Assembly: GCA_037178625.1 (NCBI GenBank)
Contig: CM074130.1
Location: 620,001-684,000, forward strand
DNA: 64,000 nucleotides
Source: Skeletonema tropicum
Lineage: Eukaryota; Bacillariophyta; Thalassiosirophyceae; Thalassiosirales; Thalassiosiraceae
Reading direction: 5' to 3'
Made by a program: the position numbers and the translations under genes. Below, piece after piece: positions 58,715-64,000 of the stretch (within the stretch, counting starts at the first letter, position 1; the number at the start of each line of letters is the position of its first letter). The notes under the pieces were generated by a model, which did no database searches, was not told the DNA's origin, and saw only the letters and a program-made list of their open reading frames with translations.

Positions 58715-59011
58715 GTTTCACAAAAGTTGCAGATTTCATACAAGTTTGTTGCAGATTTCATACAAGTTTCACACATGTTGCACACATGTTTCAAAGTTTG
58801 AAACATGTGTGCAACATGTGTGCAACATGTGTGCAACATGTGTGAAACATGTGTGCAACATGTGTGCAACATGTGTGAAAGTTGCAGATTTCACACAAGT
58901 TTCACACATGTTGCACACATGTTTCAAAGTTTGAAACATGTGTGAAACTTGTGTGCAACATGTGTGAAACATGTGTGAAACTTGTATGAAATCTGCAACT
59001 TTTTGTGAAAC
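58715..59011. repeat. Palindromic minisatellite built from an 11-bp word
   Basis: The ends 58715-58747 and 58978-59011 are inverted repeats (gtttcacaaaagttgcag...) differing by one extra A. The interior consists of tandem 11-bp words (caacatgtgtg, aaacatgtgtg) on one strand and their reverse complements on the other. They turn around at two perfect odd palindromes centred near 58796 and 58929 (tttcaaagtttgaaa core). The whole 297 bp can fold on itself. Apparent ORFs in both strands are by-products of the repeats. Confidence 0.9.
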
Positions 59012-59414: not shown

Positions 59415-59504
59415 TAGTGTCCCGATGACCGATGCATGACGTAAATCGATAATACTCCTCTCTCGATATATTATTAGATAAGTACTTCTACTTATGCAAC
59501 AACA

Positions 59505-60308
59505 ATGGCTCCATTTGCAGCGACGGCAGCATTTATCGCAGTGAATCAGGGAGGATTAATATTACTAGAGGGCAGCTTTGGAAGCAGCTACTCAAGAGGA
59601 GGCGTTGCTGCGATAGCGAAACGAAGATTTTGGTTTCCAACAAAAATATCAGCCCCAAAAAAAACATGTCGAAATAATCACAACATTTTATACGCTGCCG
59701 ACGAGGATGACACCCTCCCTCATGACGACAAGGTAGTAGAAAACGTGGCGAAACCATCATCACCACTAGCAATGGCTGCAGCTGATTGGTTGGAAGAGGA
59801 GGAAGATGAACTAGCAATGTATTGGGATCGATACGACGTTGCAAAGAAAAATAGTGATAGCAATAAGGAACAACCACAATCAGTGACACCAGCACAACCA
59901 CTCCAACCTGACAAAGATGAGGATACCACCACCGAAGAACGCCTCGATAGATATTTCCAAAGTAGAAATATCGACAGGGGGATGGAACGTCAACATTCTT
60001 CTCATATCAAACAAGCAATTGAAAAGAGTAAAAAAGCCTCCTCTGCAGATGAGGCAATCCAACTCCTCACACCCATACGACAATACTTACAATATAATAC
60101 GAAATTGGGTGGCAATGCCTTCTTTGAACTAGCGCAGGCATTGGATGCCAATGATCAAGTGGACGAGGCAACTGATATTTATGAACAATTGGCATCTAGT
60201 CCTCATGCGGAAATAAGGAGAAAGTCGAGAGAATTGTTGACAATGGGATCATCGCGGCGGAAGCGTACGTACAATAAAAGTGTGTGGAATTGGTTTTGGG
60301 ATGTTTAA
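59505..60308 (+). CDS. Conserved-looking helical-repeat (TPR-like) protein, 267 aa
   Basis: The ATG at 59505 (acaATGgct) is well placed. The first ~60 residues are Ala/Ser/Arg-rich with a mild hydrophobic stretch and AAIAKRRFWFPTK, possibly an organelle presequence (weak). A disordered acidic/Gln-rich middle follows. The end (about 175-250) forms paired helices typical of tetratricopeptide-like repeats (ADEAIQLLTPIRQYL; NAFFELAQALDANDQVDEAT, then IYEQLASSP). No enzyme motif is seen. A scaffold or assembly role, perhaps in the plastid, is inferred only from shape. Confidence 0.7.
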   Translation: MAPFAATAAFIAVNQGGLILLEGSFGSSYSRGGVAAIAKRRFWFPTKISAPKKTCRNNHNILYAADEDDTLPHDDKVVENVAKPSSPLAMAAADWLEEEEDELAMYWDRYDVAKKNSDSNKEQPQSVTPAQPLQPDKDEDTTTEERLDRYFQSRNIDRGMERQHSSHIKQAIEKSKKASSADEAIQLLTPIRQYLQYNTKLGGNAFFELAQALDANDQVDEATDIYEQLASSPHAEIRRKSRELLTMGSSRRKRTYNKSVWNWFWDV

Positions 60309-60398
60309 CGCTAACGTTATATAGGATGGGATAACAACAATACTCTGGATATGTAAATATTCATTCAATTCCTTCGTGAATGAGTACGATTTCTGATC

Positions 60399-62190
60399 TT
60401 AGGCAAGGTCAAGAGAGCTAAAACCATTTGGCCCAATGATCTTTTGATAATGAGAATTCTTGATGAATGGTTCTAATCGCTTCTCGGAATCTGGATAGGT
60501 AATCCTTGCTGTGATTGCCACACGATATCCTCGACGAGGGTCGGACGAAACGATGGGTTCATCCTCGTCTTTTTCATCCTTGGAAAAGAGAGGAGTGTGA
60601 AAAATGCCATGCTGTGCATGTCCCTGTAGTCCAGCTCGTTGAACGTGGATCATTCCATGAGTCGTTCGAATTCCACGGGCTGCCAGGTACAATGAATCAC
60701 CTTTAGGTTTGAAGTTGAGTAATGGCTTCCAAAGAACAAGCTCTTTTCCATTGTCAATCTCAGGGAGTTGGTAGTAAACAGTTGTAACAACGGGTTGATT
60801 CCGAATCATTGGCTCGTTCTTGGGCTTCAATGAAGTAATCGTATCTTGATGATAATGAAATCCAGATCTACGTAAATTCAACCCGAAAATGATCGTGTTG
60901 AAGCCTGGTTTGGGAGGTTTTTCGATGTGTATCATTTCGTAGACAAGATTGTGTCCGTGGCAAATCTTTTCAGTGAGCGGAGTGTGAGGTGAACCCTTGA
61001 TTAGTTTGAGCTTTCCTTCTTCTTGTCCTAGAACATATGGTCCGCCGAAGGAGCGGATGAATGCGTCTGATGCAATGGGTTGAGTCAAGATAGGTGATAG
61101 GTAAGAGTAAGAGACATGATGCAAGAAAGACCCTCTACTGTTCCGTGATTATACGCACCTGCTCCACGATGGCTCCAGAATTTTTCCGATTTCATCAATT
61201 CACGCATATTCTCGAGAGTCTCATCACTCCAAACATTAGTCACTCCGTGTACAGCGTCATCTAATACACCGCTCGCACGTGCCTTTTGATCACGCGACAT
61301 GGAAAGCTTGGGTAGCAAATCAATTGCACCCTGAACGTTCCACTGTGATGGTGGCTTCAACCCCGCATTCTCTTGCCACCATGCCTCATCATGTGCTGTG
61401 TCCAACACTCATTTTCTCCAGTATCGCCGGATCTGGTGGCCAACTAGCTGCCGATCCATCCTCATTCTTTTTCCATGGTAAGTTAGGCTGCTGACAAATA
61501 TCAATGGTGCACGTTGCTGCCGTTTCGGAATCCTGCGTGGTAATACCCGATGCATATTCTTTCACAGCTGCTTCATCAATGATACTACTCCGCTTGGCAT
61601 GTTTTGGTCTTGTCCGTCATTGAAGAAATGCGATGGAACAGTGTTTCAAAGTCATCTCTCTTGTCTTCATTTAGCAGTGTAACATTCACTGTAATGGATA
61701 ATGTTGCATCTGTTTGATCTTTAACAAGTCCATATTCCACCTTGATGATATTTTCATCTATTAGACTGGCAAGAATTGCCGCCTGCTCCCTGGCAACGTG
61801 GCCAACTTGCTGCTTCTGCGTCCCATTGTAGGCAGCGATGGCATTTTCATCATGTTCATTATCTGGTTGTCTCTGAAGCATGATTGTGGATTCATTATCA
61901 ATAGATTGGACATTTTCTTTGTAGAATTGCAGACCTCTTACTGTCAGATTGATGACGAAGGATGTTTGATCTTGTGAGAAAACGTGCCGGTCTGAGAATG
62001 GAAGTGCAGTATCTTTTGCTCCGACCGAGTGCTGCTTACGGGTATTTGAGCCATTTCCCTCGTCATTGCTACGCCTAGCTGCTGCTACCGTGTTGTCATT
62101 GTTGTCTTCATCCATGAATTCACGTGCTGTCAAGAAACCAAAGCCGCCGAATGACTTGCGCTTCTTGCTGCTGTTTTTGCCGCTGGACAT
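60399..62190 (-). CDS. HIRAN-domain plus AlkB-like 2OG-Fe(II) oxygenase gene (intron, two frame breaks)
   Basis: ATG at 62190. The first part, down to 61585, has a basic start and a HIRAN domain (FVINLTVRGLQFYKEN; LQRQPDNEHDENAIAAYN; VGHVAREQAAILASL). Near 61600 the frame changes and sense continues (HAKRSSIIDEAAVKEYASG, then WPPDPAILEKM). Near 61410 it changes again (LDTAHDEAWWQENAG). A 92-bp intron (61067-61158, gtgcgt...catcag) leads to the last exon, which ends at 60399. That exon has the iron ligands HQD in SGFHYHQDTITSL, a later His (GMIHVQRAG or QHGIFH) and GYRVAITARI (2OG-binding Arg). HIRAN binds DNA ends or single strands; AlkB-like oxygenases remove alkyl groups. A role in DNA or RNA repair is inferred. 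The frame breaks may be assembly errors. Confidence 0.65.
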
Positions 62191-62877: not shown

Positions 62878-63931
62878 TTACATCTGACTCATGTCAATCC
62901 CATCATCTTTAAGTAACTTCACCCAATCAGCCTTTTCTTCTTCGGTCCACTCCCTCCCATGCATTAGACGATGTATTGCCTGAATATTACAACGCATCTC
63001 TGGTTTACCACAACCGTGTTTCTCTTGTGCCTCTCTCCCAATCTTGGACTACGTGATCATTTATTTCGTCCATGGTTGGAATGACGGCTAGATTGATACT
63101 TGTCAGTTTATCATACTCTTCCCTCTCCTCACTGTGGACTCTCACACAGTAATCGTTGTACAGAGATTCCAACTCAACTGTAAACGCATCAAAAGACGCA
63201 TAGCCCAAGGATTCCAACGCTTTGAAAAGGTCTGCGTCATACACGTCATTGTAACCATCATCGCCTTCTTCAAGCGAGTTTAATGCTTTTACCCTGATTA
63301 CAGCTTGTTCGTCACCATAAAATGCAGCAGCTTTTAGGTGAAGAAGATTCCTTTTCTCGTCAAGCCAGCTGGGTTCCTCCGTATCAGCTACTCCTAATTC
63401 TTTGGATGAAAATTCAAATACCAACAATGTGTGCGTAGAAGCACACCCTACCTTGCCAAATTTTGCACTTGCCTTCATCATTAATGATCCCTTCTTATAG
63501 TCGACTGGGATGCCCAATTGATTGAAATCGAAATTAACATTAGCGCCCATGTAGATCATAGCGAGCAGCTTTAATGCATGTGGGTGGCCTAAGTAAGCCG
63601 CACGACATAAATTCTCCATATACTTTTTCTGATTGTTCAATGATACTTTGTTTTGATTATGTACATCGTTCTGACATTCAAGTAAATAATCCATAGTAAC
63701 GCTGTACAACGTCTCCGGACAAACTTGTGCATCAGTTTTCCCCTTCAGCTTAGCAGCTCTCCTCGCTTTGAACTCCTCTTTGCTTGAAGCGATCAAAACA
63801 CGGCAGAACGGGCACGTGAACGCAATATTTTTCCACGTCTTGGGATCATCCGTGCCCACATCGATTGTAAATGTATTTTCATCCGCACAGTATTCCGACT
63901 TCACTAACCACTGTAAATTGTCCTTCTTCAT
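62878..63931 (-). CDS. Sel1-like repeat protein with RING/CPFC remnant, 5' end probably outside or spliced
   Basis: The first in-window ATG at 63931 (MKKDNLQWLV) is directly preceded by a possible splice acceptor (attctcag|GCC), so an upstream exon with the first half of a zinc-binding domain is likely. Only one C-x2-C pair (CPFC) is present here. The middle has Sel1-type helical repeats (LCRAAYLGHPHALKLLAMIY; HLKAAAFYGDEQAVIRVKAL). Sel1 proteins are adaptor scaffolds. The frame stops at 63005, but one extra base there hides a sensible continuation (GCGKPEMRCNIQAIHRLMHG and EWTEEEKADWVKLLKDDG) to a stop at 62878-62880. It is most likely one gene with a single-base break. Confidence 0.7.
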
Positions 63932-64000
63932 GGCCTGAGAATGTGAATATTTGCAAGATTTACAAATAGATTTGAAAGCAACAGTGCGTAATGTCCAATC

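Follow-up and report, generated by a model that had tools for sequence, protein, structure and literature searches.

A fusion of a HIRAN domain and a predicted AlkB-like oxygenase in the diatom Skeletonema tropicum and its relatives

We analyzed a stretch of 64,000 nucleotides of the diatom Skeletonema tropicum (hereafter, the window; G000:C4:620001-684000 in a genome of 78.4 Mb and 125 contigs) and focused on a minus-strand gene that, in our reading of the window, spans exactly 60399-62190 from ATG to stop. The sequences of its relatives indicate that this is one gene joining a HIRAN domain to an AlkB-like oxygenase, preceded by an N-terminal tail with a motif resembling the RAD51-binding motif of BRC repeats. 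In our reading, to which we give a probability of about one half, the family would encode a single nuclear protein, recruited to RAD51-coated DNA and anchored by its HIRAN domain, whose AlkB-type oxygenase would oxidize a modified base. The architecture suggests a purpose-built repair enzyme. Both modules are known; what is new is the tail motif and, within the papers searched, the fusion. As assembled, the copy in the window is broken at two places and cannot encode the whole conserved protein; relatives have intact copies.

The gene is made up of four minus-strand frames (62190-61585, 61616-61389, 61408-61159, and 61066-60399). The first one opens with the ATG and encodes a tail of around 78 residues, followed by the HIRAN domain (Table 1). 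The joined reading, used as a query, retrieved 50 proteins among 7,999 candidates scored, and a profile search retrieved 78 among around 8,000. P0001, a protein of 572 residues from an MMETSP transcriptome where it is labelled complete, has both domains and is 88% identical over 100% of the query. P0002, a protein of Skeletonema menzelii, is 82% identical. The closest named match is from Skeletonema and the next from Thalassiosira, further named sources being Thalassiosira profunda, T. exigua, Thalassiosira sp. AJA248-18, and Stephanodiscus triporus. Relatives from metagenomes retain both halves down to around 35% identity. Motifs of HIRAN and the HxD motif occur together in 29 of 116 proteins, and 22 of the 116 also have the distal histidine and arginine motifs described below; many of the others are fragments. 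The gene models of the relatives are uneven in quality: the one of S. triporus (P0012) has HIRAN and HQD and ends short of the distal histidine, and the one of T. profunda (P0006) diverges ahead of the arginine motif. The 78 proteins of the profile search have no Pfam domain besides HIRAN and no other family's name, and a search for homologs of the last exon alone (60 matches of 186 candidates) gave no named family.

The HIRAN frame ends with a stop codon at 61585, which would fit two adjacent genes with separate transcripts. However, one frame of a relative's transcript encodes both domains, and the 22 proteins mentioned above combine motifs of both. Hence, we rejected the two-gene reading, which these data leave with a negligible probability. 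An initial annotation of this DNA had placed the two domains in a single transcription unit and proposed looking for the same fusion in other diatoms. The transcript of the relative bears out the single unit and relatives from Skeletonema and Thalassiosira have both halves, but the locus in the window is not one open frame. In the relatives, we found neither two genes nor a fold prediction at odds with either domain.

The HIRAN domain announced by that annotation is matched by PF08797 with 63.8 bits (cut-off 24.7, E 1.3e-17), or 65.4 bits in a six-frame search. To count conserved residues, we used an alignment of 42 of the 50 relatives (A2), from which P0009, P0010, P0011, P0013, P0043, P0045, P0047, and P0050 were dropped by eye as fragments or damaged sequences; PF08797 matched 34 of these 42 at E up to 1. 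The nearest solved structures by sequence are those of the HIRAN domain of human HLTF (E 6.5e-8). In a structure search with the AlphaFold2 model of P0001 (predicted local distance difference test, pLDDT, of 84.6), this part matched DNA-bound HLTF HIRAN, i.e., the predicted fold is HLTF-like. According to PMC4666394, Y72 and Y93 flank the DNA cavity of HLTF, and only the N90/N91 double mutant, among several mutants, lost function entirely. The equivalent of N91 is conserved in 32 of 33 rows, and an Asp three residues later in all 33. HLTF and Rad5 are fork remodellers made of HIRAN, RING, and SNF2, whereas no SNF2 or RING domain was matched in the 42 aligned members at E up to 1. The single other HIRAN match of the genome, at another locus, adjoins frames with SNF2, RING, and Helicase_C and corresponds to an ordinary Rad5/HLTF-type gene.

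The model of P0001 also matched ALKBH2, ALKBH3, ALKBH5, FTO, and AlkB, with a predicted double-stranded beta-helix of the AlkB type. When modelled alone, the last exon gave a useless model (pLDDT 39), and we thus take the segment before it as part of the fold. The initial annotation had recognized the HQD and the terminal arginine motif RVAITAR, and both stand. It had missed the second histidine of the metal site, which is best placed in QHGIFH, as well as the two frame breaks and the motif in the tail. Among rows with a residue, the His and the Asp of HQD are both found in 36 of 36 (6 of the 42 rows are gapped) and the distal His in 32 of 32 (10 of the 42 are gapped). In the arginine motif, the first Arg is kept in 30/31, the Thr in 30/31, and the second Arg in 29/32. 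The diatom protein thus has in common with ALKBH2, ALKBH3, and Escherichia coli AlkB the predicted fold, the H-x-D...H site, and the paired arginines, but it adds a family-specific tryptophan-rich segment before the core and a HIRAN domain on the same chain.

The best match of the model by Z is FTO (Z 16.1, 212 residues aligned, with FTO matches covering model residues 233-566), and ALKBH5 comes third by E-value. One might thus propose an AlkB-like enzyme that demethylates RNA or marked, undamaged adenine, resembling FTO or ALKBH5, in which HIRAN serves only as a chromatin tether. We regard this as unlikely. The Z of FTO and ABH2 differ by less than 1, a tie by the standard of the structure-search tool. 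FTO_NTD has no match at the gene and the chain ends soon past the arginine motif, which leaves no space for an FTO-like C-terminal domain. The genome also carries a separate, true FTO, and we rejected orthology with FTO on that ground. This clear FTO gene (L023, G000:C9:852575-853393; E 5.9e-78) is the sole FTO_NTD match of the genome at E up to 0.1. Another alternative is that the substrate is a protein that works at the fork or in recombination, which the oxygenase would hydroxylate or demethylate. Proteins are the substrates of ALKBH4 and ALKBH7, Tpa1 (E 2.4e-6) and Ofd2 (E 7.3e-6) are among the fold matches, the sequence cannot place the subfamily, and the motif-bearing tail suggests protein partners. 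Yet, the best structure matches of the oxygenase are nucleic-acid dioxygenases and HIRAN is a DNA-binding domain, so we find this second alternative quite improbable.

The third part of the protein is its tail. In a diverse alignment of six members, M1, F15, and A18 are the sole invariants of the first 80 residues, the latter two in G-F-x-[T/S]-A. To assess this motif, we took the 37 sequences, out of 117 (the 116 proteins and the window), that start with M and have a recognizable HIRAN motif far enough in. The pattern F-x-[T/S]-[A/G] is present in 29 of the 37 tails, whereas shuffled tails have it in 4.6 on average and in 11 at most (2000 shuffles). Several of the 8 tails lacking it have short or doubtful starts. 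Leaving the window aside, as in the counts of clustering and basic clusters given below, downstream segments of the same proteins have the motif in 0.85 of 36 on average and in 4 at most. Its consensus reads GFx[T/S]A, then two variable residues and two that are mostly hydrophobic. A basic cluster lies ahead of the motif in 15 of 28 motif-bearing tails (shuffles: mean 1.0, maximum 5). In the model of P0001, residues 1-70 have pLDDT below 50, i.e., the region of the motif is predicted to be disordered.

FxxA is the RAD51-binding motif of BRC repeats (FHTA, FQTA, FSTA) and of RAD51 itself (FTTA), where F and A are essential, as described in PMC4855620. The RAD51 of this genome has DFKTAADALEDRK at the FxxA position. 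The diatom tails share with the BRC repeats of BRCA2 and with the oligomerization motif of RAD51 the F-x-[T/S]-A and the two mostly hydrophobic residues, a likeness seen at the level of sequence, and we infer that the tail motif is a candidate RAD51-binding site. Some tails have more than one copy: three in P0006 and four, by the F-x-[T/S]-[A/G] pattern, in P0039, which resembles a small BRC-type array.

Together, these elements suggest how the protein might work. The disordered tail, with its basic cluster and F-x-T-A, would bring it into the nucleus and to RAD51-coated DNA; HIRAN would hold a DNA 3' end or a single strand; and the C-terminal Fe(II)/2-oxoglutarate (2OG) oxygenase would oxidize a modified base there, most likely by removing an alkyl group, e.g., from m1A or m3C, letting replication or recombination proceed. 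The damage-sensing demethylase of the initial annotation is therefore a plausible description. There is a precedent for such coupling, since a direct interaction of ALKBH3 with RAD51C boosts the demethylation of 3'-tailed m3C DNA, as reported in PMC10816986; in the diatoms, the elements would sit in one chain. More speculative, and in our view rather doubtful, is the full version of this idea, i.e., a one-chain enzyme for direct reversal coupled to recombination, with FxTA on RAD51, HIRAN on the 3' end, and the unclassified AlkB-like oxygenase clearing base lesions from the single strand between them.

Several observations weigh against a RAD51-recruited, HIRAN-anchored AlkB-type enzyme. Regarding HIRAN, the specific recognition of 3' ends reported by others is disputed in PMC4666394. 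The position equivalent to Y72 has a Phe in the window, and 31 of 32 rows carry F, Y, or H there. That of Y93 has a His in the window and varies among relatives (H 17, Y 8, V 4, F 3, I 1, i.e., Y or F in 11 of 33), and that of N90 is also variable. As the residues of the DNA pocket are only partly kept, DNA binding by this domain is likely but not certain. Regarding the oxygenase, no Pfam 2OG oxygenase profile matched any of the 42 members at E up to 1. The profile PF13532 (2OG-FeII_Oxy_2) in particular, unlike in ALKBH2, ALKBH3, and AlkB, has no match at the gene; the 17 matches of the genome at E up to 0.1 (15 above the cut-off, counted exon by exon) are all elsewhere. In RxNxTxR, the AlkB motif, the Asn is replaced by Ala in 30 of 31 rows and in the window. 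NCBIfam gave nothing for five relatives, and hhalign detected no similarity to five single AlkB and FTO proteins of this genome, which is a weak test. Since profiles, NCBIfam, and hhalign were all without similarity, the link to AlkB rests on fold and motifs. With no match to Pfam 2OG or FTO profiles, the oxygenase looks like an unassigned AlkB-like branch. Regarding the tail, the statistics of the motif ignore relatedness, and 24 of the 28 motif-bearing tails link into a single cluster at 50% identity. The BRC profile PF00634, which has only 29 positions, did not match P0006, P0039, or P0110 at E up to 10, nor was it found in the genome by six-frame search.

The two frame breaks of the window copy, near 61600 and 61400, also count against our reading. 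The closest relatives (P0001-P0004) are continuous at both sites and differ there by a few residues only, and distant relatives are variable at the first one. An enumeration of the GT-AG combinations that would mechanically restore the frame gave 82 with a single intron (size range 30-600 bases) and 452 with two (size range 30-200 bases). Introns at both breaks are not favoured: they would excise sequence that aligns with the protein of the relatives, the shortest single one taking 299 bases. Hence, we read both breaks as indels. The end of contig C87 has a copy of 59493-60687 of the window (G000:C87:24731-25928), 98.2% identical over 1,198 columns, seemingly a second allele that the assembly kept on a contig of its own. 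In the 1.2 kb shared with the window, it has 18 single-base changes, one 3-base indel, and no frame-shifting indel. We could not use it to arbitrate the breaks, because the contig stops before them, within the last exon. The window copy might thus be a null allele or carry sequence errors. A pseudogene or null allele in this strain, with the family functional elsewhere, is a serious possibility that we nevertheless place below even odds, and one that is compatible with our reading for the family. It would explain the two breaks, and the lack of frame-shifting indels in the comparison with C87 indicates an assembly not obviously full of such errors. On the other hand, the sequence outside the breaks shares 88% identity with a transcribed relative and keeps every predicted catalytic residue, the second allele is identical in 95 of 95 residues at the protein end, though its contig ends before the breaks, and sequence errors may account for them.

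Table 1. Features of the HIRAN-oxygenase gene, in positions of the window
Feature	Position	Strand	Basis
Whole gene, ATG to stop, broken at two places as assembled	60399..62190	-	Relatives align over full length
Basic cluster KKRK in the N-terminal tail, resembling a nuclear localization signal	62155..62166	-	Sequence; tail counts
GFLTAREF, F-x-T-A motif like the RAD51-binding FxxA of BRC repeats and RAD51	62116..62139	-	Tail counts; PMC4855620
HIRAN domain	61681..61956	-	PF08797 match; fold of relative P0001
First frame break, overlap of frames 1 and 2	61585..61616	-	Frames, alignment of relatives, GT-AG enumeration
Second frame, conserved linker with LPWK and WPP motifs	61389..61616	-	Alignment of relatives
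Second frame break, overlap of frames 2 and 3	61389..61408	-	Frames, alignment of relatives, GT-AG enumeration
Third frame, conserved tryptophan-rich part (WW, GLKPPSQW, HGVTNVW, FW) preceding the oxygenase core	61159..61408	-	Alignment of relatives; FTO structure matches reach over it
Intron GTGCGT...ATCAG, GT-AG, 92 bp, phase 1	61067..61158	-	Joined reading aligns gap-free with P0001 and P0002
Last exon, AlkB-like double-stranded beta-helix oxygenase	60402..61066	-	Model of relative P0001
HQD, predicted first His and Asp of the Fe(II) site	60843..60851	-	Alignment conservation
QHGIFH, predicted distal Fe(II) His	60597..60614	-	Alignment conservation
RVAITAR, predicted 2-oxoglutarate-binding Arg and second Arg	60504..60524	-	Alignment conservation

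On one side of the gene, a tandem array of 11/22/33-base units (ACATGTGTGCA-like) at 58716-58991 adjoins the neighbouring gene. The C87 allele has a similar array, with a gap between array and neighbouring gene of around 3.4 kb, versus around 0.5 kb in the window. On the other side, in the minus-strand region 62878-64000, a long frame of 331 residues runs off the window and matches no Pfam profile at E up to 0.01. A second frame (62878-63048) follows it and looks like its continuation, perhaps with another frame break.

We also scanned viral contigs and prokaryote genomes for relatives, each with two peptide patterns only. These weak scans gave 24 matches in viral contigs and 59 in prokaryote genomes, among which no relative was confirmed, and on this limited basis we set aside a viral or prokaryotic origin. 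In BFVD, the 50 matches listed include viral AlkB-like oxygenases and, separately, viral HIRAN proteins. The initial annotation had suggested that the architecture is undescribed, and this holds within the open-licence papers searched: judging by titles, the openings of abstracts, and the passages checked, none of the papers listed on HIRAN with oxygenases or on AlkB in diatoms describes a fusion of HIRAN and an AlkB-like oxygenase. The terms 'HIRAN domain' and 'oxygenase' together gave no open-licence paper, and HIRAN is absent from the main text of PMC3475032. In the passages checked of PMC7037221 and PMC7804152, the mention of AlkB concerns the PCNA-interacting motif of ALKBH2 or a reference on ALKBH2 and PCNA, and in PMC7824862, 'HIRAN' is the name of an author.

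The oxygenase half of this family is invisible to Pfam. If the more speculative one-chain version of our reading is true, diatoms would have joined in a single polypeptide the work that humans divide between the separate proteins ALKBH3 and RAD51C. The fusion makes a testable prediction, namely that alkylation reversal, DNA 3' ends, and RAD51 are linked within one protein in an algal group of major ecological importance, and it would show that HIRAN is able to direct chemistry besides the work of helicases.
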